From: an uncultured Bacteroidales bacterium
Lineage (GTDB): Bacteria; Bacteroidota; Bacteroidia; Bacteroidales; Bacteroidaceae
Reading direction: 5' to 3'
DNA length: 37,441 bases
Assembly (NCBI GenBank): GCA_902791295.1
Contig: CADAVI010000023.1
Location: 1-37,441 of the forward strand
Shown here: one piece after another, positions 1-37,441 of the stretch
Position numbering within the stretch: the first letter of the stretch is position 1
How the letters are laid out: each line of letters begins with the position of its first letter
The notes under the pieces: model-generated
Told to the model about the DNA's origin: nothing
What the model saw: only the letters and a program-made list of their open reading frames with translations
Databases searched by the model: none
Made by a program: the position numbers and the translations under genes

Positions 1-1633
1 AGACCGCACGCTGGCCACCGACATCATCATCCCCCGCAGCAACCTCAAGAAGGGCAAGAACGGCGACAAGGCGGTGGTGAAAATCGTGGAGTGGCCCGAG
101 GACGCCAAGAACCCCATCGGCAAGGTGGTGGACATCCTGGGCGCCACGGGCGAGAACAACGCCGAGATGCACGCCATACTGGCCGAATACGGGTTGCCCT
201 ACACCTACCCCAAGGCGGTGGAGGCCGCCGCAGACAAGATACCCGCCGAAATCCCTCAGGAGGAAATCGACCGACGGGAGGATATGCGCGAGGTGCTCAC
301 CTTCACCATCGACCCGCGCGACGCCAAGGACTTCGACGACGCACTCTCCATCCGCCGGCTCGACGAAAAGCTGTGGGAAGTGGGCGTGCACATCGCCGAC
401 GTGAGCGCCTACGTGGCCGAAGGGAGCATCATCGACCGCGAGGCGCAGAAGCGCGCCACGAGCGTCTATCTGGTGGACCGCACCGTGCCGATGCTGCCCG
501 AAAGGCTCTGCAACCTCACCTACAGCGTCATCTTCAAAATCAACGGGAAGGGCGAGGTGAAGGACTGGCATCTGGCCCACACCGTGACACGCAGCAACCG
601 CCGCTACTGCTACGAAGAGGTGCAGGAAATCCTCGAGGGCAAGGACGGCGACTACGCCGAGGAACTGCGCCAGCTGGACCGCTTCGCCAAAGTGCTCCGC
701 GCCAAGCGCTTCGAGGCCGGCAGCGTCGATTTCGACCGCACGGAGGTGCGCTTCGAGATTGACCCCGACGGCAAACCCGTCTCCGTCTATTTCAAGAAGA
801 GCCAGGACGCCAACAAGCTCATCGAGGAATTCATGCTGCTGGCCAACCGCACCGTGGCCGAGAGCATCGGCAAGGCGCCAGCCGCACGGGGGAAGAAGCA
901 AAACCAGTCGCAGAAGACCTTCGTCTATCGCATCCACGAGACGCCCGACCCAGACAAACTGATGAACCTGTCGAATTTCGTGATGAAGTTCGGCTACAAG
1001 TTCAAGGCCGGCCACGACACCAAGAGCCTCAGCAGCGGCATCAACCGCCTCATGGCCGACATCCGGGGCAAGAAGGAGCAGAACGTCATCGAACTGCTCA
1101 CGCTGCGCTCCATGATGAAGGCCCGCTACTCCACGCACAACATCGGACACTACGGCCTGGCCTTCCCCTTCTACACCCACTTCACCTCGCCCATCCGGCG
1201 CTACCCCGACCTGATGGTGCACCGCCTGCTCACCAAATACGCCCAGGGCGGACGCAGCGCCAACCGCGACAAATACGAAGAACTCTCGGACCACTGCAGC
1301 GACATGGAGCAGCTGGCCGCACAGGCCGAGCGCGCCAGCATCAAATACAAGCAGGTGGAATACATGAAGGAGCGTCTGGGCGAAGTGTTCGAAGGCACCA
1401 TCTCCGGCGTGACGGAATACGGACTCTACGTGGAGGTGAACGAAAACAAGTGCGAAGGCATGGTGCCGCTGCGCGACCTCTGCGACGACTACTACGAATT
1501 TGACGAGAAGAACTACTGCCTGCGCGGACGACGCACCCACCGCCAATACTGCCTGGGCGACCAGGTGAAGATACAGGTGGCACGCGCCGACCTCTACCGC
1601 AAGCAACTCGACTATAAACTCATCCGCGACTAA
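1..1633 (+). CDS. rnr: Ribonuclease R (3' part; 5' end lies outside the window)
   Basis: Processive 3'-to-5' exoribonuclease that degrades structured RNA in the cytoplasm. The frame is already open at base 2, so the N-terminal cold-shock/OB part is cut off by the window. The RNB catalytic motif DPRDAKDFDDALSI is encoded around 310-350, with the Asp residues that bind the two metal ions. A second RNB signature, TSPIRRYPDLMVHR, lies around 1185-1225. A C-terminal S1 RNA-binding domain follows from about 1375 (VFEGTISGVTEYGLYVEV). The stop TAA at 1631-1633 is directly followed by the GTG start of rpoN, so the two genes are very likely co-transcribed. Length after the RNB domain is normal for the family. 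RNase R rather than RNase II is chosen because of the overall layout and the Bacteroidetes context. The identification is firm; only the start is missing. Confidence 0.95.
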   Translation, partial: DRTLATDIIIPRSNLKKGKNGDKAVVKIVEWPEDAKNPIGKVVDILGATGENNAEMHAILAEYGLPYTYPKAVEAAADKIPAEIPQEEIDRREDMREVLTFTIDPRDAKDFDDALSIRRLDEKLWEVGVHIADVSAYVAEGSIIDREAQKRATSVYLVDRTVPMLPERLCNLTYSVIFKINGKGEVKDWHLAHTVTRSNRRYCYEEVQEILEGKDGDYAEELRQLDRFAKVLRAKRFEAGSVDFDRTEVRFEIDPDGKPVSVYFKKSQDANKLIEEFMLLANRTVAESIGKAPAARGKKQNQSQKTFVYRIHETPDPDKLMNLSNFVMKFGYKFKAGHDTKSLSSGINRLMADIRGKKEQNVIELLTLRSMMKARYSTHNIGHYGLAFPFYTHFTSPIRRYPDLMVHRLLTKYAQGGRSANRDKYEELSDHCSDMEQLAAQAERASIKYKQVEYMKERLGEVFEGTISGVTEYGLYVEVNENKCEGMVPLRDLCDDYYEFDEKNYCLRGRRTHRQYCLGDQVKIQVARADLYRKQLDYKLIRD

Positions 1634-21838: not shown

Positions 21839-22807
21839 TTAATTATAGTCCGTGATGCCTTTGGCGCGCAGAGTGGCGATAGCGCTCTCGTTGCCCTGTT
21901 TGGCGCTGAGTTTGTACCACTTAACGGCCTCTTCCACGGACTGCTCCACTCCGGTGCCGGTCTCATAGCAGTAGCCGAGATTGTTCTGCGCGGTGGCGTT
22001 GCCCTGCTCTGCGGAGAGGCGATACCAGTTGACGGCTTCGCCGGCAGACTGCTCCACGCCGATGCCCTCGTCGTAGCAATAGCCCAGGTTGCATTGTGCA
22101 TCGGCATTACCCTGTTCTGCCGAGAGGCGATACCATTTCACGGCCTCTGTGACCGACGCCTCCACGCCGCGACCTTCCTCGAAGCAGGCGCCCAAGGCAC
22201 ACTGTGCGGCGGCATTGCCCCCGTCGGCGGCCTGACGATACCATTTCACGGCTTCCGCGCTGTTTCTGGCCACGCCGAAACCTTCATCGTAGCAGGTGCC
22301 CATCGTGTACTGCGCCCGGGCGTCGCCCTGTTCCGCAGCTTCGCGATACCACTTCACAGCGGCCACCTTGTCCTTGGTCACGTATTTGCCCAAAGAATAC
22401 AACTTGCCCAAGTAAAGCATTGCATCCTTGTCGCCCTTTTCGGCGCGCGACTTGAATTCCAGGAAACTCTGCTTGTAGTAGTCCATCGCCTTGGTGAGAC
22501 TGGCTTCGAGGCCGCGGCCCTCATCGTGACAGATGCCCATATAGTATTGAGCGTAGGGGTTGCCCCGTTCCGCCCAATAGCGGTACCACTTGATGGCTTC
22601 CGTGTAGTCCTGTATCACGCCGTCGCCGTTGTAGTACATCTGCGCGATTTGCAATCCGGCCTCCTCGTCGCCGGCCAGCGCCTTCTCCACCAGCGCCTTG
22701 TCGGCGGGAGAGTTGTTGTCGGGAATGACAATGTCAACAGACTTGCCGCCGCAGGCAGCAAGCATGATGCCAAAGACGGAAACTGCGATGATTTTGAACT
22801 TTTTCAT
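21839..22807 (-). CDS. Sel1-repeat lipoprotein
   Basis: A 322-aa lipoprotein: the signal MKKFKIIAVSVFGIMLAAC ends in a lipobox with the lipidated Cys at residue 19. About seven Sel1-like (TPR-type) repeats follow, each close to 36 aa and built around AQYxMGxCYDEGxGV and EAVKWYRxSAEQGNA. The last four repeats are almost identical to each other, also at DNA level, so they arose by recent internal duplication. Such repeats mediate protein-protein contacts; no partner can be named. ATG 22807 is chosen over the in-frame ATG at 22852 because it gives the lipoprotein signal and lies downstream of the -7 box at 22833-22840. Confidence 0.88.
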   Translation of the reverse strand: MKKFKIIAVSVFGIMLAACGGKSVDIVIPDNNSPADKALVEKALAGDEEAGLQIAQMYYNGDGVIQDYTEAIKWYRYWAERGNPYAQYYMGICHDEGRGLEASLTKAMDYYKQSFLEFKSRAEKGDKDAMLYLGKLYSLGKYVTKDKVAAVKWYREAAEQGDARAQYTMGTCYDEGFGVARNSAEAVKWYRQAADGGNAAAQCALGACFEEGRGVEASVTEAVKWYRLSAEQGNADAQCNLGYCYDEGIGVEQSAGEAVNWYRLSAEQGNATAQNNLGYCYETGTGVEQSVEEAVKWYKLSAKQGNESAIATLRAKGITDYN

Positions 22808-22832
22808 GACTGATTTCTTTAATGAGATGGGA

Positions 22833-22840
22833 CAAAGATA
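22833..22840 (-). promoter_or_regulatory. Promoter -7 box of the Sel1 gene
   Basis: The minus strand reads TATCTTTG (TAnnTTTG), 25 bases before the ATG at 22807. Just upstream, TAGTGT (22853-22858) and ACACTA (22865-22870) form a small inverted repeat that could be an operator, which is a guess. Confidence 0.5.
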
Positions 22841-22888
22841 TGTCTTTTTCACTAGTGTTCCAGGACACTAAAGCTGGAATATCAAGAA

Positions 22889-29689: not shown

Positions 29690-30358
29690 TTATAATAAAC
29701 CCTCCAGCACGAGGTTCGGACACACCTCGACGTCGCCCTCAAGCGCCATCGGCAGTCCTCCGGTGTAGAACACTTTCACGTCGCGACACTTCTTCCGCGC
29801 TTCGCGGATGTAGCCCTCCGTCTCGAAGCGCAGCCCGTTCATCGCACCGCCACGCATAGCCTCATCCGTGGTGAACGCCCACAGAGGCGCCTCGCCCTCA
29901 AGGGACACCTGCGGCAACGCCGCCGTGTGTTCGTGCATACTCTCCAGGCGGAGCCGCAATCCCGGCGAGATGATGCCGCCGAGATGCCTGCCGTCGGCGG
30001 TGACGAGGTCGGTGGTCAGACAGGTGCCGCAATCCACCACGAGCACATCCCGTCCGGGCGCTCTTCTGCGCGCTCCGCGAATGGCGGCGCAACGGTCTTC
30101 GCCCAAACCTTCGGGGAACAGTGTCGGATGCGACGCCAGTTCGCGCACGCGTCGCACCTTAATATTGCGCGCAGCCGCCAGACGGAACAATGCGTCCGGC
30201 TGCGGACCCACACAGGAGAGGTGCACTTCGTCCGCGCCGTCGAGCCACTGCGCCCAATCTGCCCCGTCGTAACCCGTGCGCACCACTTCGCCCGGGGTGC
30301 TCCCCTCCGAGCGACTCAGCTTCACACAGGTGTTGCCGATGTCCGCCAGCAGTATCAT
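29690..30358 (-). CDS. coaX: Type III pantothenate kinase
   Basis: Catalyses the first step of CoA synthesis: pantothenate plus ATP to 4'-phosphopantothenate. It is 222 aa. The phosphate-binding motif DIGNTCVKL is at residues 6-14, GLGEDRCAAI holds the pantothenate-binding Asp-Arg, DCGTCLTTDLV is the second phosphate motif, and GGIISPGLRLRLESMHEHTA is the family signature. It is slightly shorter than usual. Its ATG overlaps the GH51 stop (4 bases, ATGA type), so it is co-translated with a carbohydrate enzyme, an unusual partner. It converges on the feo operon with a 20-base gap. Confidence 0.92.
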   Translation of the reverse strand: MILLADIGNTCVKLSRSEGSTPGEVVRTGYDGADWAQWLDGADEVHLSCVGPQPDALFRLAAARNIKVRRVRELASHPTLFPEGLGEDRCAAIRGARRRAPGRDVLVVDCGTCLTTDLVTADGRHLGGIISPGLRLRLESMHEHTAALPQVSLEGEAPLWAFTTDEAMRGGAMNGLRFETEGYIREARKKCRDVKVFYTGGLPMALEGDVEVCPNLVLEGLL

Positions 30359-32811
30359 CGCTTCAGACGCAGCACCTGATAGGAATAGGGCGGCAGAGTG
30401 AGGGATGCGGGCACGCTGCCCAGTTCTTCTGTCGCGGGGGCGGCCACGTTTCTGTCCGTTGCGTGACCGGCGAGTGTGGTTTTCACGGCACGCGTCCAGG
30501 CGCCTCCGCCGTTGACGGTCAGTGACATCACGGTGGATTGGGGTAAAGCGTTCACCACCTTGATGATGAGGTCGCCCGTCTCCTTGTCGAGCGTCACCGA
30601 GTGGGACACACGCAGAGCGGCGTCGGCCCGGTTTGTTCCCTTCATGCTGAACTTGGCGTCGGCATAGACGTATTCGTCACCGGCGTTCTGTCCGGCCATC
30701 ATCTGCACGTAGTAGTTGGGGGTGGGCTTCACCTCGGTGTTGTTGAAGTAAATCATGTCGGGGTTCCACTGCGTGTGGCCCTCCTTGGCCAGCAGCGGAG
30801 CGTAGCTGCTCATGCACACCACGTCGCCGTTGCGCTCCAATCCGTTGATGTGCAGCGCCTCGGCCAGGGCGTTCTCCAGCAGATTACCCTTGCTGGCCCA
30901 CTCGCCGAGATACACCTTGGTGCCCTCGCGCTTGTATTTGTCGTAGAAGTCCTGGTTGTGGAGATACCATCCCACGGGGTTGTAGTAGTGCTCGTCCACG
31001 ATGCTGAGATTCTTCTCAGCAGCATGCTGCCAGCCGTATTCGTAGTCGCTGCCCTCCCAGAAGGGGCCCACGGTGCCCACCACGGTGATTTCGGGATGCG
31101 CCTTCTTCACGCCCTCGTTGAGGTAGTCGAAGCGCTCGTTGAACACGTCACCCAGGAGGTCTTCGTTGCCGATGCCCAGATACTTCAGCCCGAAAGGTTT
31201 CGGATGTCCGGCTTTGGCACGCATGGCGGCCAGCTTGCTGGTGGCGGGGTCGCCGTTGGCCCACTCGATGAGGTCGAGCAGTTCCTGCAGATAGGAGGCC
31301 ATGGTGAGGGGCTTACCGTTGTAGGTGTAGCGTCCGGGCTCCCAGGGGATGCCGCCCTGCTGTCCGTGTCCGCCGTGACTGCTGTTCTGACAGGGCACAC
31401 CGGCCGAGAGCACGGGGAGGGGCTCCGCACCGATGTCTTCGCAGAACTGGAAGTATTCATAGAATCCCAGGCCGCGTGTCTGATGGTAATGCCAGATGTT
31501 GAAGTCCGGCTGACGTTCCCACAGTTCACCCACGGTGGCCTGCCAGTGGTAGATGTTGTCGATGCCGTTGCCGTGACTCATGCAGCCGCCGGGGAAGCGC
31601 ACAAACTGCGGACGCAAATCCGCCAGTTTCTCGGCCAAATCCCGGCGCAGACCGTTTTCGCGGCCCTTATAGGTGTCCACGGGGAAGAGGCTCACCATGT
31701 CGAGGTCGTACTGTCCAGCCTCCTGCGGCTCAATCACCAGACGGCCGTGTGCGGTGGAGCCGGACATCTTCAGCACGGTTTTCTGCTGTGTCCAGGCCGG
31801 AGTGGCCTTGAAGGACGTCTTGGCCAGCGTCGAGCCGGACTTGTCCACGAGGCGCACCCTCACCTCGCCCTTGCCTCTCAGGAAGAGCGACAGGCGATAC
31901 TTCTTACCCTCCTCCAGAGCGATGCCGTCCCAGCCTTCGTTCTCCAGGCGTGCGCCCTTTTTGTTCACGGTCAGGCGTGTGTAGTGGCGATTGTTCTCGT
32001 GGAGCGGATTTTCGGTGAGCACCGTCCACTCTGTGCCGTCGCCGTGGAGGCTCCAGGCCGTCTTGGCCGACCAGGCACCGTTGCGGCCTGACCAGTCGGC
32101 TTTGGTGTATTCGAAGTCGCGGTTCTGCACCAGTTCGGCATAGAGTCCGCCGTCGGCGGCGTAGTTGATGTCCTCAAAGAAGATGCCGAAGAGCATGGGT
32201 GAAATCGCCTTTTTCTGCGTCATATCCACCGTCACCTCGTATCTCGCGCTGTCCAGGTCCTTGAAGCGGGCGCCGTCCTCCCTCATGTTGTCTCGCTCCT
32301 GGCGGGCACGGAATTTGTGGGCCTCCATCTTCTTCTCCAGATTGTCGAGCACGCCGTAGGCCACACGCACGGCTTTCAGCGAGTCGGCTTTCAACTGTGC
32401 CATCTTGGCCTCAAAGGCTTCCTGCGACAGCACGGGATAGTCCTGGGGCTTCCACAGCCAGAGGTCTTCCGTCTCAGTCTGCGCAATCTGGTGAATCTTC
32501 GGGCTGACGACGAATTCGCAGCGCACCTTGCCGCCCTCCGCACTCAAGACGGGGTAGTACATCTTCTTCTGCGCGCCCCATTCTCCGAAGTCCGAGGAGA
32601 GCACCTTGTAGCCCTGCCCCACCTTGTTCCACACGCGCCCATCCACGGAGTATTCCAAAAACATGCCGTCGGCGGGCTTCAGGTTGCGGGCTCTCACCCA
32701 CACGGAATCGGGATGGTTGCCCAGTCCCAGGGTTGAGGCGTTCACACTCTCTGCCGCTCCGAAGAGACCGGCTGTCAGCAGCACCGCTGCCATCGTCTGT
32801 TTGCGTATCAT
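30355..32811 (-). CDS. GH51 alpha-L-arabinofuranosidase with N-terminal extension
   Basis: An exported glycosidase of 818 aa that removes terminal L-arabinofuranose from plant polysaccharides. The signal peptide is MIRKQTMAAVLLTAGLFGAA. Residues about 25-115 form an added beta-rich domain, and about 120-170 a charged coiled-coil-like segment. The GH51 part starts near 195 (SPMLFGIFFEDINYAADGG). The acid/base Glu550 is in YLGIGNED, and the nucleophile Glu637 in YLGEWAS. RFPGGCMSHGNGIDN is another family signature. The length is 150-200 residues above a minimal GH51. No susCD pair or other glycosidase lies nearby, so it is not part of a visible polysaccharide locus. It sits between the DUF4954-like gene (27-base gap) and coaX (overlap). 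Confidence 0.93.
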   Translation of the reverse strand: MIRKQTMAAVLLTAGLFGAAESVNASTLGLGNHPDSVWVRARNLKPADGMFLEYSVDGRVWNKVGQGYKVLSSDFGEWGAQKKMYYPVLSAEGGKVRCEFVVSPKIHQIAQTETEDLWLWKPQDYPVLSQEAFEAKMAQLKADSLKAVRVAYGVLDNLEKKMEAHKFRARQERDNMREDGARFKDLDSARYEVTVDMTQKKAISPMLFGIFFEDINYAADGGLYAELVQNRDFEYTKADWSGRNGAWSAKTAWSLHGDGTEWTVLTENPLHENNRHYTRLTVNKKGARLENEGWDGIALEEGKKYRLSLFLRGKGEVRVRLVDKSGSTLAKTSFKATPAWTQQKTVLKMSGSTAHGRLVIEPQEAGQYDLDMVSLFPVDTYKGRENGLRRDLAEKLADLRPQFVRFPGGCMSHGNGIDNIYHWQATVGELWERQPDFNIWHYHQTRGLGFYEYFQFCEDIGAEPLPVLSAGVPCQNSSHGGHGQQGGIPWEPGRYTYNGKPLTMASYLQELLDLIEWANGDPATSKLAAMRAKAGHPKPFGLKYLGIGNEDLLGDVFNERFDYLNEGVKKAHPEITVVGTVGPFWEGSDYEYGWQHAAEKNLSIVDEHYYNPVGWYLHNQDFYDKYKREGTKVYLGEWASKGNLLENALAEALHINGLERNGDVVCMSSYAPLLAKEGHTQWNPDMIYFNNTEVKPTPNYYVQMMAGQNAGDEYVYADAKFSMKGTNRADAALRVSHSVTLDKETGDLIIKVVNALPQSTVMSLTVNGGGAWTRAVKTTLAGHATDRNVAAPATEELGSVPASLTLPPYSYQVLRLKR

Positions 32812-32838
32812 CTTGCAGTGTCGATTGTTCTTCCGTTA

Positions 32839-34371
32839 TTATTCCTTGCCGTCGTGGAAAGCCAGCATCACGGTTTCCTTCTCACGGTCGATATCCACCA
32901 GCCGGCTCAACTCCTCCCAGACCTCACCCTCCGCAGCGCCCTGTCCGAGACTCTGTCCGCGGCGGTAGAACTCCTCCAGCGCCGGACGCAGCAGCGCGGC
33001 GTCGCCCGTCTCCTCGATGCGCTCGAGCAGCGCCTCGACATCTTTCTTCGGCGCCAACAGGCCGGCCATATCCAGCCACTGCTCTTCCGTCTGTCCGCCC
33101 CAGAGGCTCTCATACAGCGCCAGCCCCAGTTTATACAGATGCATGCCGCGCTTCACGGCGTGCGCCGAGAGCACACAGCCCTCGTAGATTGTGTCGCTCT
33201 TGGGGTTCACTTTGTGGAAGGTTTCCAGCAGCTCCAGGCCGCGACGCATCTCGGCCGCCGTCAGCGGGTTGAGCCAATGGAAGTGTATCAGGTCCAGGCG
33301 CTTGCCGTCGTCGGGCCGCTTGTCGCGCTTGGGCCATTTCTCCGTGTCGCGCTTCGTACCCAACGTGCCCAGATTGGCACCGGGCGACACGCGCGTCACC
33401 CCGTCTTTGCTGATGATGTAGCTGAAGGGCAGCGCCGTGAGGTCGGGGTGGCTGTCCAACTTGCCCATCACCATCGAGAAGACACCGATGCGCGCCGGCC
33501 ACAGGATGTGCGAGCCGCTGGCGGTCTTGCTGCCGCGCTCCAGCACGCCCCAGTGCACGGGACCGCTCTTGTACATGTGGTTGCTCTGATTGGTGCCCGA
33601 TCCGGCGTTGAAGAAGGAGAACATGCCGCCGATGAGCAGCGTGGACTTGTGGTGGGTCACGGTGTAGGGACCTCCGAACACGGCGCAGGCCTCTCCGTTC
33701 TCACCCTGACAGTTGGCGAAGAAGACGCTGTCCGAGGCGGAGTATCCGTGACCGATTACGCTGGATTCACCGATATAGACGCGCTCCGCGAGGGCCGCAC
33801 TCTCAAGCTTGGCGCCGCGCTGCATGATGAGGTGTTTGGCTTGCACGCCGCGCCCGACAACGGCGGGCACGTCGCAGCTGCTCACGATGGTGGCGTCTTC
33901 CAGCAGCGTCACGCCCTCCAGACGGGCGCCCTCGCCCACATTCACGTCGCGCAGCAGGCCGCAATCGGTGATGACGGCGCCGCTGCCTATCTTCATGGGC
34001 GTGCCCTTCAGCTGCGCCGCACGCGCCTCCACAGCGCCGTGAAGCACGCCGATGAGCGCCTCGCGCCCGCTATAGACGGCTTCTATCCAGGCCTCCTGCG
34101 CCGAGAGCGTTTCGCTGAGCAGGATGTCCTTGCCGCCGGCTTCGTTGAGCACGCTGACCCGCGTGCCGACGCCGTAGGCGGAAGAGCCCGTCTGCTCCAG
34201 ACGGCTGTTCTCCAGACGCACATCACGGCCTATTTCCATACTGCCAGCAAAGCGCACATCCCAGATGGCGCCGAGGTCGGCCTGTTCGTCAAAACGCACG
34301 CAACTCCAGTCACGGGCACGACAACCCTGTCGCTCCAATTGCCCTATTTCAGCGGGGGTAAGTGTTTTCAT
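32839..34371 (-). CDS. DUF4954-like left-handed beta-helix protein
   Basis: A 510-aa protein resembling the Bacteroidetes DUF4954 family (putative sugar nucleotidyltransferase-like). The N-terminal half has hexapeptide-like beta-helix repeats (IGSGAVITDCGLL, VGEGARLEGVTLLEDATIV, VYIGESSVIGHGYSA), then conserved GGPYTVTHHKSTLLIGGMFS and GTNQSNHMYKSGPVHWG. The C-terminal half is helical. No catalytic residue can be named. It has no signal peptide. The start is ATG 34371 (MKTLTPAEIGQLERQG), not the in-frame ATG 34413, because the -7 box at 34401-34408 lies between them. It is the first gene of the unit with GH51 and coaX. Confidence 0.75.
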   Translation of the reverse strand: MKTLTPAEIGQLERQGCRARDWSCVRFDEQADLGAIWDVRFAGSMEIGRDVRLENSRLEQTGSSAYGVGTRVSVLNEAGGKDILLSETLSAQEAWIEAVYSGREALIGVLHGAVEARAAQLKGTPMKIGSGAVITDCGLLRDVNVGEGARLEGVTLLEDATIVSSCDVPAVVGRGVQAKHLIMQRGAKLESAALAERVYIGESSVIGHGYSASDSVFFANCQGENGEACAVFGGPYTVTHHKSTLLIGGMFSFFNAGSGTNQSNHMYKSGPVHWGVLERGSKTASGSHILWPARIGVFSMVMGKLDSHPDLTALPFSYIISKDGVTRVSPGANLGTLGTKRDTEKWPKRDKRPDDGKRLDLIHFHWLNPLTAAEMRRGLELLETFHKVNPKSDTIYEGCVLSAHAVKRGMHLYKLGLALYESLWGGQTEEQWLDMAGLLAPKKDVEALLERIEETGDAALLRPALEEFYRRGQSLGQGAAEGEVWEELSRLVDIDREKETVMLAFHDGKE

Positions 34372-34400
34372 CCTGTTTGAATATTTACGTATTGCGCGTA

Positions 34401-34408
34401 CAAAGTTA
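34401..34408 (-). promoter_or_regulatory. Promoter -7 box of the DUF4954-GH51-coaX unit
   Basis: The minus strand reads TAACTTTG (TAnnTTTG), 29 bases before the ATG at 34371. It is divergent from the porin promoter. Confidence 0.5.
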
Positions 34409-34472
34409 TACATTTTTTTGCAAAAACTCTAAAATCTCCCGCTGGAGACTGCCTTATGATAGGATTTTTTAG

Positions 34473-34480
34473 TACTTTTG
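34473..34480 (+). promoter_or_regulatory. Promoter -7 box of the porin gene
   Basis: TACTTTTG matches TAnnTTTG and lies 18 bases before the ATG at 34499, giving a short leader. Confidence 0.55.
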
Positions 34481-34498
34481 CAACAAATCAGGCTTAAC

Positions 34499-35668
34499 AT
34501 GAAACATTTCTTCACACTTCTTTTTCTTTCCTGCTCCATCCTGACACTTGCTGAGGATGAAGCGTTTATACAGGGCGATGCCTGGAGCCTCCAGGACGCC
34601 GTCACCAAAGCCGTCACCGGGGGCAGAAACAACAACGACAGCGTGGCGACGCGCTGGCGACGCTCCGAGTGGGTCACGGTGCCCAAATTCGGCGGTTACA
34701 TCGTGGGTTCCTACAAATATGACAGCGCCGACGAGGACCGCAACGAGGGCTTCGGCCTGCGCTTTGCCCGCGTCTATGTGGACGGCTCGATACTGCGCGA
34801 CTTCAACTACCGCGTGCAGGTGGACTTCGCCGGTTCGCCCCGCGTGCTGGACGCCTATCTGGAGTGGGCGCGCTACAAGTTCGTCACGGTGAAGGCCGGC
34901 GAATTCAAGCGCTGCTTCACCCTCGAGAATCCCATGAACCCCTGGGACGTTTCCTTCGGCGACTATTCCCTGCTTTCAAAGAAGTTTGCCGGTTTCGGCG
35001 ACCGTGTGGGCGAGCCCTCGATGGGCGGACGCGACCTCGGCGCGCAGGTGGCGGGCGACCTCTTCAAGTCGAAGCGCGACGGCCACTATCAGTTCCGCTA
35101 CCAGTTCGGCGTTTACAACGGCCAAGGCATCAACCAGAAGGACCTCGACCGCAAGAAGGACTGGATAGGCACGCTGCAGTATTCTCCCGTGAAGAATCTG
35201 CGCCTGGCCGTCTTCGGCTGGTGGGGCAACTACGTGATGAAGGACGCGGGCAGCGTCGATCGCCACCGCTGGGCCGCCAGTGCGCAGTATGAGGGCACCA
35301 ACTATCAGGCCGGCGACTTCTGGGGCCGCGTCTCCTTCCGCGCCGAATATGCCCAGAGCTACGGCTACAAGTTCGGCCGCAGCGCGGGCGGCAGCTATTT
35401 CATTGACACCCGCGCCGGCGACAAGGCCGATGCCTGGTACATCATGGTCGGCGTGCCCCTGTGGCGCTGGATTAAGGGCAGCCTCAAGTGGGACGTCTAT
35501 CGCGACGATGCCACCTGGGACACCGAGCACTCCATCTACAGCGCGGCCCTCATGCTCCAGCCCCACAAGAACCTCATGCTCCAGCTGCAGTACAACTACC
35601 ACCACGACCTCACCACGGCCGTGACGGACTACCACCAGTTCTGGACGCAGCTCTATGTCCGCTTCTGA
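34499..35668 (+). CDS. OprO/OprP-type outer-membrane porin
   Basis: A 389-aa beta-barrel protein with signal peptide MKHFFTLLFLSCSILTLA. Features of the phosphate-selective porin O/P family: alternating strands with Tyr/Phe/Trp girdles, GFGLRFARVYVDGSILRDFN, YRVQVDFAGSPRVLDAYLEW, AGEFKRCFTLENPMNPWD and the last strand FWTQLYVRF, with Phe at the C-terminus as needed for outer-membrane insertion. Anion or phosphate preference is an inference from the family; the Lys-rich constriction cannot be checked here. ATG 34499 is chosen over ATG 34478, which overlaps the -7 box. It is monocistronic and converges on the DUF4488 gene (43-base gap). Confidence 0.88.
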   Translation: MKHFFTLLFLSCSILTLAEDEAFIQGDAWSLQDAVTKAVTGGRNNNDSVATRWRRSEWVTVPKFGGYIVGSYKYDSADEDRNEGFGLRFARVYVDGSILRDFNYRVQVDFAGSPRVLDAYLEWARYKFVTVKAGEFKRCFTLENPMNPWDVSFGDYSLLSKKFAGFGDRVGEPSMGGRDLGAQVAGDLFKSKRDGHYQFRYQFGVYNGQGINQKDLDRKKDWIGTLQYSPVKNLRLAVFGWWGNYVMKDAGSVDRHRWAASAQYEGTNYQAGDFWGRVSFRAEYAQSYGYKFGRSAGGSYFIDTRAGDKADAWYIMVGVPLWRWIKGSLKWDVYRDDATWDTEHSIYSAALMLQPHKNLMLQLQYNYHHDLTTAVTDYHQFWTQLYVRF

Positions 35669-35711
35669 GGCCTGCCGCAGTGTCGGGGAATTCGCATGAG
35701 GCGCATTCGGC

Positions 35712-36560
35712 CTATTTCTGCTCCTGTGCGCCGGATTCCGTCGCGAAGGCGTCCATAAAGGCGGACTCGGAGCCGATGCGCGAGTAGATGGCATAGTCGG
35801 TGCGCCAGTCGCGCGTGAGAGCTATGGCAATCGTGTTTTTGTTCACCCATGTGACCTTTCTCACCTCATCGCCCACTTTTATCGTGTTGCGGTCGGGAAT
35901 CGAATGGTCCTTGCCCACCGCCCCCTGCACACGGAATCCTTTGTCGCCGGAACTCATCACATAATAGACAACGTTGTCGGGCATGATGATCATCATCGTG
36001 CCGTAATAGGGGCTTGTGGCGTAGTTCTTTTCCAAAGCGGCAACCGTCTTTTTCGTGTTGCGCAACTCGTCCATCCACCCCAACTGGCGCCAGGCGCCGA
36101 CGAGAGGTTGGGCGGGATCGGCCGTAAACTTCTGCAGCAGAGCGTCGAAGATGATGCGCCCGTTGTCGGAATACTTCCCGCTCTCATAGTGTTCCGTCAC
36201 CCACCCTCCTTCGGGGAAATACATGTGACCGCGTACCGTGCTCCACCATTTGAGTTTGAAGCCGCGGGCATCGCTGTCGTAAATCCGCATACTGTGATCG
36301 CCCTCAGTCTTGGGCTCGCTGCCCGTATAGTTGAGTGTCTGCCCGTCGGTGTTGGCGATGTTAAAGCTGCCGTCAGGCTGCACAAAGAGCGTCAGCGTGA
36401 TGTCGTTGGTGACAACTTTGTATTGGTCGAAGGGTGCGTTGACGAGCGGTGTCTTGCCCTCCAGCGCCACCAACCGGTAGATGCCGCGCGGGTTCTCTGT
36501 CTGTGCTCCCGCTCCTGCGGCAAAGAGCACAACAAACAAGGTTAGGAAAATATTTTTCAT
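35712..36560 (-). CDS. DUF4488 domain protein (exported, two similar halves)
   Basis: A 282-aa protein with signal peptide MKNIFLTLFVVLFAAGAGAQ. Two lipocalin-like halves: the first begins NPRGIYRLVALEGKTPLV (about residue 23), the second PLVGAWRQLGWMDELRNT (about 155). DUF4488 members share this G-x-W/Y-R start and a small beta-barrel. The ligand is unknown. The start is ATG 36560, which gives the signal peptide and lies downstream of the -7 box; an in-frame ATG at 36626 lies upstream of the box. No operon partner. Confidence 0.78.
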   Translation of the reverse strand: MKNIFLTLFVVLFAAGAGAQTENPRGIYRLVALEGKTPLVNAPFDQYKVVTNDITLTLFVQPDGSFNIANTDGQTLNYTGSEPKTEGDHSMRIYDSDARGFKLKWWSTVRGHMYFPEGGWVTEHYESGKYSDNGRIIFDALLQKFTADPAQPLVGAWRQLGWMDELRNTKKTVAALEKNYATSPYYGTMMIIMPDNVVYYVMSSGDKGFRVQGAVGKDHSIPDRNTIKVGDEVRKVTWVNKNTIAIALTRDWRTDYAIYSRIGSESAFMDAFATESGAQEQK

Positions 36561-36584
36561 GGTACGGTATTTATGATTTCGGAG

Positions 36585-36592
36585 CAAAGATA
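36585..36592 (-). promoter_or_regulatory. Promoter -7 box of the DUF4488 gene
   Basis: The minus strand reads TATCTTTG (TAnnTTTG), 24 bases before the ATG at 36560. Confidence 0.55.
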
Positions 36593-36685
36593 CAAAATCT
36601 TTTTTTAAAATCCTTAATTGACGCAAAAGATTTTACAAAAGCCGCAAGAATGCTGCGCCATGCAGAAAAAATGTGAATACTCTGC

Positions 36686-36836
36686 GGTCATTTTGGTCAT
36701 GGTCATTTTGGTCAAACTCGTTTCGCAAGGCAAAAAGTGCCACAATATATAATAAAAATATATTTTTATTATTATTGTGAGCTGAAAACGACATCCGATT
36801 TTCAATTTGACCAGTTTGACCTTGACCAATTTGACC
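36686..36836. repeat. Nested inverted-repeat element with eight GGTCA/TGACC sites
   Basis: Left arm 36686-36716 carries four GGTCA at 36686, 36695, 36701 and 36710. Right arm 36806-36836 carries four TGACC at 36808, 36817, 36823 and 36832. Spacings between site starts are 9, 6 and 9 on both sides, so the arms are mirror images (24 of 31 bases match as an inverted repeat). The 89-base centre holds an AT-rich near-palindrome at 36741-36779. Confidence 0.8.
36741..36779. repeat. AT-rich palindrome inside the GGTCA element
   Basis: CACAATATATAATAAAAATA (36741-36760) faces TATTTTTATTATTATTGTG (36761-36779). The arms are complementary except for one unpaired base, giving a stem of about 19 bp with almost no loop. 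Confidence 0.7.
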
Positions 36837-36915
36837 ACACCCCCCCAAAAAAAATTCAGTACAAGACATTTTGAAAAAAGTTGCTCAAAAATTTTAGACC
36901 GCAATGTCGCTGCCG

Positions 36916-36923
36916 TACCTTTG
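36916..36923 (+). promoter_or_regulatory. Promoter -7 box of the HU-family gene
   Basis: TACCTTTG matches TAnnTTTG. The likely start site near 36928 leaves a leader of about 215 bases before the HU ATG at 37145, much longer than other leaders here. Confidence 0.5.
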
Positions 36924-37041
36924 CAGCGTCAATTCCGGAACGACAAAATTTGCGCGCTAACTAAAGAATTTTTGTGCGCCAGTTAGAAAGGCCATTTTGG
37001 TCCCTAACCCTTTTCTAAGCGCCAGCGATGAGGCTGAGCGC

Positions 37042-37159
37042 AGCGAAAGCAACCCTTAATCATTAACCCTTAACCATTAAAAACTATGTCTCTCAAAGTA
37101 AGCGAAAGCAACCCTTAATCATTAACCCTTAACCATTAAAAACTATGTCTCTCAAAGTA
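37042..37159 (+). repeat. Perfect 59-bp tandem duplication at the HU start
   Basis: 37042-37100 and 37101-37159 are identical 59-base copies. Each holds two AACCCTTAA-type blocks, CCATTAAAAACT, and ATGTCTCTCAAAGTA. The second ATG (37145) begins the HU gene. The first (37086) begins a 10-codon frame ending in TAA at 37116-37118, because 59 is not a multiple of three. Confidence 0.9.
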
Positions 37160-37441
37160 AAAGCAAAAGAACAACTCATCAAGATTGGCAAATACGCCGA
37201 CACCTACCGCTACGTGATGGCCCCCGAACTCTACATCGCCCTCTCGCAGAGCAAGGTGATTCAGGAGGCCGCCCTCCGTTCCGGTATCAACAAGGGCATC
37301 ATGCAGGCCTGCTGGGACGCCGCCGGTGAAGTCATCAAGGCATGGGCCACCGAAGGTCACGCCGTAGCACTGCCCGGCCTGGGCACCATGCGCTTCGGCC
37401 TGCGCGCCAAGAGCGTGGCCGACGTCAACGACGTCAAGGCC
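37145..37441 (+). CDS. HU-family DNA-binding protein (HU-HIG type; 3' end outside window)
   Basis: The frame is open from ATG 37145 to the window end (99 codons). The start MSLKVKAKEQLIKIGKYADT, then YRYVMAPELYIALSQSKVIQ, and IMQACWDAAGEVIKAWATEGH with ALPGLGTMRFG match the Bacteroidetes histone-like family (TIGR01201/HU-HIG type). A single HU fold binds DNA as a dimer; many members carry a variable C-terminal extension, which lies beyond the window. The role is nucleoid or regional DNA binding, with target unknown. It is preceded by a repeat-rich leader and a duplicated start codon. Confidence 0.9.
   Translation, partial: MSLKVKAKEQLIKIGKYADTYRYVMAPELYIALSQSKVIQEAALRSGINKGIMQACWDAAGEVIKAWATEGHAVALPGLGTMRFGLRAKSVADVNDVKA

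Follow-up and report, generated by a model that had tools for sequence, protein, structure and literature searches.

Phage P4 has two separate cis sites, ori and crr, which carry the same repeats and are served by one primase-helicase, and one of these sites lies near the primase gene. Other systems close to the element considered here, as described in the accessible parts of the sources, include: (i) the origins of phage-inducible chromosomal islands (PICIs), in which an AT-rich stretch downstream of the initiator gene is bracketed by two sets of iterons (PMC6092414), (ii) pRN1, in which a stem-loop of ~100 nt with low sequence conservation lies 3' of the ORF904 primase-helicase-winged-helix gene and is required for replication (PMC4234260), and (iii) the miniature inverted-repeat transposable elements (MITEs) of Porphyromonas gingivalis, including BrickBuilt, which have 23-nt tandem repeats and IS5-like terminal repeats (PMC4596501). 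The element in question is a mirror-symmetric set of eight GGTCA sites around an AT-rich palindrome in an uncultured Bacteroidales bacterium; the 37,441-nucleotide stretch analysed (contig CADAVI010000023.1 of assembly GCA_902791295.1, positions 1 to 37,441) is termed the window. With confidence a little better than even, the element is judged to be the HU-side, iteron-type, origin-like site of gene islands that encode a primase, and the C-terminal winged helix of that primase would read it; this judgement draws on sequence comparison and on analogy with the PICI and pRN1 origins. A literature search (without subscription papers) returned no recognised description of these arrays or islands, and the accessible part of a paper on DUF4248 (PMC6231650) contains nothing on them.

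The palindrome and its relatives

The sequence-only reading had described four GGTCA and four TGACC sites of equal 9-6-9 spacing, a nearly perfect AT-rich stem, an imperfect palindrome over the whole element, the absence of any gene and a position upstream of an HU-family gene, and each of these is borne out by the coordinates. The GGTCA sites start at 36686, 36695, 36701 and 36710, the TGACC sites start at 36808, 36817, 36823 and 36832, and the spacing is exactly 9-6-9 on both sides; the four-site pattern is found twice in the window and never in 100 dinucleotide shuffles. The AT-rich core matches its own reverse complement at 95%, and the outer arms (36683-36716 and 36806-36839) are 79% complementary across 34 nt. 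The two open reading frames (ORFs) listed across the element (78 and 96 aa) are readings of the repeat, and no plausible gene is present there. The start codon of the HU-family gene lies ~310 bp downstream.

Folded as a single DNA strand, the element gives -36.7 kcal/mol (z -8.5 against 200 shuffles), in agreement with the hairpin formation that had been proposed as a check. So strong a fold is also what an RNA or DNA structure maintained by selection on pairing rather than on protein sites would give, such as a terminator or an attenuator of the HU gene. This explanation is very improbable, as the spacers pair with the other arm of their own element no better than with arms of other elements (4.06/9 own-arm against 4.43/9 cross-element) while the sites are kept, and an Rfam scan of window positions 30000-37441 returned nothing at the gathering threshold. 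As regards the arms, the spacer comparison largely refutes it; selection for pairing may still act on the AT core by itself.

Further copies, for which a genome search had been suggested, are present. In the source genome (G000; 2.26 Mb, 145 contigs, 85% complete), another copy of 96% identity lies on contig C58 and one half array on contig C13. An exact pattern scan of a genome contig collection yielded at least 119 stretches. The set of double-arm elements, at up to three mismatches per arm, has 31 rows. As L083 and L154 are one sequence, found once in each orientation on separate contigs of a single metagenome-assembled genome (MAG), the rows represent at least 30 distinct elements (two from G000 and at least 28 from the scan). 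Among the matches listed, the record titles of the scan elements name a Parabacteroides MAG (L122) and otherwise Prevotella, Prevotellaceae, Bacteroidaceae or Bacteroidales, and many are named as rumen or other gut samples. In scan matches from other phyla the pattern often lies inside long ORFs, so these are outside the element count. Arrays with no mismatch occur in 10 of 81 genomes of relatives and, at the level of the order, in 2 of 198; both counts include G000. Nearly all records are drafts or MAGs, and some of the G-labelled genomes are identical to named records. Nine stretches of viral contigs carry at least one exact array. Two viral stretches in which an array lies behind a large gene (L039 and L041, the gene of L041 being a Prim-Pol/AAA gene) were not used as evidence, as their repeats are of the GGGTCA type and the context differs.

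What is conserved across the elements is the sites and their 9-6-9 spacing, which at up to three mismatches was also the search criterion, while the spacer letters vary. In 24 of 31 rows the core is more palindromic than any of 40 shuffles, and the stem sequences are of 25 distinct kinds. Between the C58 copy and its counterpart in G034, all eight sites are kept and the sequence between the arms has diverged. The 688 bp beside the palindrome on C58 (L006 4762-5449) is 99% identical to L263 3354-4041 in the other genome, compared with ~85%, gaps included, across the palindrome and scaffold, which suggests that the element is replaced as a unit.

A second conserved non-coding module lies to the left of several palindromes (L006 ~4541-4764 on C58, and contigs C17, C28, C66, C35 and C2). 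Module and palindrome together form a composite scaffold of several hundred bases. Array types differ inside this conserved scaffold, as if arrays were exchanged within a fixed frame.

A dispersed, multi-copy, non-coding element with inverted ends, the window copy of which has a sharp left end against the C58 copy, recalls a MITE-like non-autonomous element; the arrays would then serve a recombinase as terminal inverted repeats, and transposition would have spread the copies. This is quite improbable. The flanking target-site duplication that had been proposed as a check is absent from all 31 rows at offsets -2..5 and seven lengths of 2-9, and what would be the ends is also found, in the form of half arrays, behind primase genes. 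An empty-site search by way of the left-neighbour gene found homologues in 23 of 61 genomes and an array at 0 of 19 loci (L304-L322), these being mostly remote homologues with synteny not established, so that none of them counts as a clean empty site.

Primase genes, HU genes and matching arrays

One recurrent neighbour of the arrays is a primase-like protein of ~800 aa with a DUF3987 domain, a domain predicted in the accessible part of PMC5862659 to act as a helicase in mobile-element replication. At least 10 distinct GGTCA primase loci were found (L007, L044, L047, L077, L081, L091, L094, L108, L127 and L151). In seven of the ten, a half array starts within ~30 bp of the primase stop (more distant in L081, L091 and L151). 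The primase reading frame even overlaps the start of the array in L279, L284 and L286. Such placement suits an origin behind an initiator gene. In eight of the ten loci the array lies just before an ORF of ~135 aa, itself behind the primase. This second arrangement favours the main rival, a transcriptional operator, in which an island regulator (the primase, the ~135-aa protein or HU) would bind the arrays and regulate the gene behind the primase as well as the HU promoter; the position of the arrays at or within the primase end counts against it.

The DUF3987 domain is matched in 33 of 81 genomes of relatives: 9 of the 10 with a zero-mismatch array compared to 24 of the other 71 (Fisher p ~0.001), and, in the genus alone, 9 of 10 compared to 17 of 39. 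The sequence behind the stop was read in 29 DUF3987 loci of relatives (L172-L200), apart from that of G000. GGTCA arrays follow in four of these (L183, L184, L190 and L192). Other repeats seen by eye behind DUF3987 genes include GTGTCA, GTCATTA, GTGGCATTT and TTTGTAAC, with a GTTGCAAT array within the last codons, and some loci have no recognisable repeat. Non-GGTCA units among the primases are exemplified by GTGACTTT or AATGTTGC.

Another recurrent neighbour is an HU-HIG gene, with an array or palindrome upstream in 10 of the 12 genome-collection loci with an HU match (exceptions L064 and L080), as is also expected of an operator. Loci with both primase and HU matches are variable gene islands with the two genes at opposite ends, and in 9 of 10 of them the two genes face away from one another (exception L285). 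Arrays at the two ends were compared in these 10 loci plus L259, which has a primase and palindrome and no HU (stretches set by hand). The 9-mer score between primase-end and HU-end arrays of the same locus is 377, against a permutation mean of 73 and maximum of 310 in 20,000 (11 loci; phylogeny not removed). With the redundant GGTCA loci L258 and L259 left out, the own pairing is best in eight of nine rows, and in seven of nine with 7- and 8-mers; L257 and L258 belong to one genome and have a common array. Pairing is weaker in L270 and L287, the arrays of which resemble those of other loci, and in L282, where the match is short; in L287 no array is visible by eye in the 520 bp upstream of HU. 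The array unit behind the primase thus appears to be the HU-end unit of the same island. An operator would account for this agreement through one regulator serving both ends.

The cargo of these islands was scanned against Pfam with 30 proteins, 29 of them end and cargo proteins of L257, L258, L270, L276, L284, L286 and L287 and one an ORF of L081; L279, L282 and L285 are outside the cargo scans. At least six of 10 islands (L257, L270, L276, L284, L286 and L287) carry restriction, Dnd/Pbe or methylase genes. The Pfam matches include: (i) type ISP, IIG-like and other DNA methylases or restriction enzymes, (ii) a KAP NTPase and a helicase with a PLD-like domain, and (iii) Rha, Bro-N, KilA-N and ORF6N proteins. 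PADLOC models matched 10 of 10 proteins from six islands (L258 being outside this analysis), the proteins having been preselected as defence-looking; by PADLOC a weak PAPS-reductase match is DndC, and the AAA_23 proteins are Pbe/Dnd. No integrase or transposase is found among the 30 scanned proteins, a subset of the ORFs of islands whose ends are not mapped, and this too counts against a MITE-like element. In L257 and L258, a 140-aa protein past the ~135-aa ORF resembles a phage endolysin family.

The protein that reads the array is probably the primase, to which sequence and model both point. The primase C-termini carry a VRQMLKNWRKQGL-type sequence with Arg at the second place, before QMLKNW or MMLKNW, in each of the 13 C-termini assigned to the GGTCA type, among which two proteins are counted twice (L257 = L258 and L091 = L259 over the last 120 residues). 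The same holds by inspection for L081, which the script scored as 'other' because its array is more distant; L151 was left out because its frame is cut short. In seven other readable C-termini this position is H, Q, H, Q, Q, K and R, and the row with R (L272) has a mixed array containing one GGTCA. In an AlphaFold model of L108, the Arg position falls in the third helix of a helix-turn-helix, with a local predicted local distance difference test (pLDDT) score of 79-85. The primase domain itself is presumably of the archaeo-eukaryotic type, judging by its family and by weak fold matches.

In the origin-like reading, the cognate protein would be the primase-helicase from the other end of the island, with a primase domain, a DUF3987 ATPase and a C-terminal winged helix. 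The winged helix is predicted to bind the iterons and the primase-helicase to multimerise across both arms; the AT core would melt or extrude as a hairpin, the primase would begin DNA synthesis, and the HU-like protein from the gene just downstream may help to bend the DNA. A broader proposal, speculative and unlikely, is that these are Bacteroidales defence-cargo islands without a classical integrase that use a private iteron alphabet common to the primase and HU ends; palindromes would be swapped within the conserved scaffold, solo palindromes would be landing sites or footprints, movement would proceed via replication from, and recombination at, the sites, and the window would hold an HU-end site without its island.

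Several observations weigh against the origin-like reading or its assignment of the reader. The sole DUF3987 match of G000 is on contig C13, therefore none lies in the 36 kb left of the element, and the window copy is not 3' of an initiator gene. This copy is then the HU end alone, either as a relic or as a solo site relying on a primase elsewhere (C13). As G000 has one DUF3987 gene and seven array types, most of its palindromes have no visible partner in a genome that is 85% complete. The GGTCA primases have a half array next to them and no AT core. The spacers speak both ways: those of the primase array are identical to those of the dispersed arrays in G019 (6/6 arms), in favour of the reading, and differ from them in G045. 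Within the protein, the strongest single column for GGTCA (0.81) is ~95 columns before the winged helix, with the Arg column second (0.78), and the windowed correlation with array similarity is 0.47 at the winged helix, yet 0.41 in a conserved stretch. The L108 model is poor as a whole (mean pLDDT 58, predicted template modelling score 0.32). Foldseek returned nothing at E <= 0.001, with primase domains best at E ~0.2 and winged helices at E 0.5 and above, and a sequence search of the PDB found no relative at E 0.1.

The promoter-like block and the HU-HIG gene

A promoter-like block starts ~30 bp behind the window element (Table 1). Its TACCTTTG was read against the Bacteroidetes -7 consensus. 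The block occurs at ten places in G000, that of the window included, and each lies behind a palindrome; the arrays ahead of it are of the GGTCA, GGTCATTT, TGTCA, GTGTCA, GTGGGACA, TGTTACAG and CTGCAACA types. It is present in 15 of 61 genomes of the genus, and repeat arrays of various units stand, by eye, in front of 26 of the 28 genus copies listed (two from G000). L254 lacks an array and L239 is ambiguous, and the arrays of L233 and L245 are broken off by the contig end. This recurrence of array and block is a further point for the operator, which is nonetheless rated as somewhat unlikely: an element with eight sites in two arms and a conserved AT palindrome goes beyond the needs of an operator, and in 19 of the 35 loci listed the block is followed first by a long ORF of the opposite strand (by ORFs, not gene calls).

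Table 1. Features of the right-hand end of the window.
Feature	Position	Strand	Basis
Left array, 4 x GGTCA, starts 0/9/15/24	36686..36714	+	exact pattern
Right array, 4 x GGTCA as TGACC, same spacing	36808..36836	-	exact pattern
AT-rich core palindrome	36741..36779	.	perfect 12+12 inverted repeat at 36749-36772
Whole imperfect palindrome, origin-like element	36683..36839	.	arm pairing, single-strand fold, 96% copy at C58
Promoter-like block, including TACCTTTG at 36916-36923	36867..36937	+	repeated behind palindromes in the genome
Perfect tandem duplication (60 bp) of the HU start region	37042..37160 (37042-37101 / 37101-37160)	+	self-comparison
5' part of the HU-HIG family gene, cut by the window end	37145..37441	+	Pfam HU-HIG, 26.2 bits

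The Pfam score of the HU-HIG gene is exactly the family cut-off, as scored on the 99 aa inside the window. The window contig and contig C94 overlap by 43 bases, and the gene appears to continue on C94; past its end, C94 carries, by our own reading of the sequence, an ABC-transporter-like gene on the opposite strand. The 60-bp duplication copies the upstream region, start codon and first codons of the HU-HIG gene and could be a recent event or an assembly effect. From the first ATG of the duplicated region (37086) only ~10 codons are open, and the HU frame begins at 37145. Elsewhere in the window, at 21839-22852 on the minus strand, an ORF has Sel1-like tandem repeats by our own reading, with DNA self-similarity of 67-70% at steps of 108 and 216 bp.

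Comparison with described systems

Of the three functions that the sequence-only reading had offered, a replication-type site fits best because the arrays lie behind primase-helicase genes and match the array at the HU end of the same island. An operator keeps some plausibility because the promoter-like block follows the element, and a MITE has become less likely because the search for target-site duplications was negative. The idea that HU binds the element gained no direct support, although HU-HIG genes recur downstream of such sites. An unnamed class of chromosomal repeat is thereby tied to a concrete candidate partner, the DUF3987 primase-helicases, and the different array units provide a natural panel of matched protein-DNA pairs for the study of DNA reading by winged helices. 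The islands suggest that restriction, Dnd/Pbe and like defence genes of rumen Prevotellaceae-type bacteria sit in islands marked by arrays at both ends. With such ends, the movement of defence islands that lack a visible integrase can be tested directly.

Compared to BrickBuilt, the window element is likewise a dispersed intergenic repeat of Bacteroidales, and BrickBuilt has promoter activity (PMC4596501, accessible part). By contrast to the 23-nt tandem repeats of BrickBuilt, the window element has 5-bp sites spaced 9-6-9; the accessible part of the same paper describes no link of repeat to primase and places one of 19 copies beside a PF00216 DNA-binding gene. The likeness to pRN1 is in the combination of a primase, helicase and winged helix protein with a stem-loop origin; unlike the islands described here, pRN1 is an archaeal plasmid, and no iteron arrays of this kind are reported for it in the accessible part of PMC4234260. 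Similarly to the origins of PICIs, including the Staphylococcus aureus pathogenicity islands (SaPIs), as described in the accessible part of PMC6092414, a site lies directly 3' of a primase or initiator gene (here as a half array), the iterons are element-specific and the cargo is accessory. Unlike in PICIs, the full two-set site lies not by the primase but thousands of bases away, at the HU end, and the GGTCA primases have a half array only. An HU-HIG gene is present, solo copies are dispersed in the chromosome, and neither integrase nor terminase is found among the 30 scanned proteins. In anatomy the window element resembles such an origin, but it is not classed as a PICI origin, since no initiator gene precedes it.
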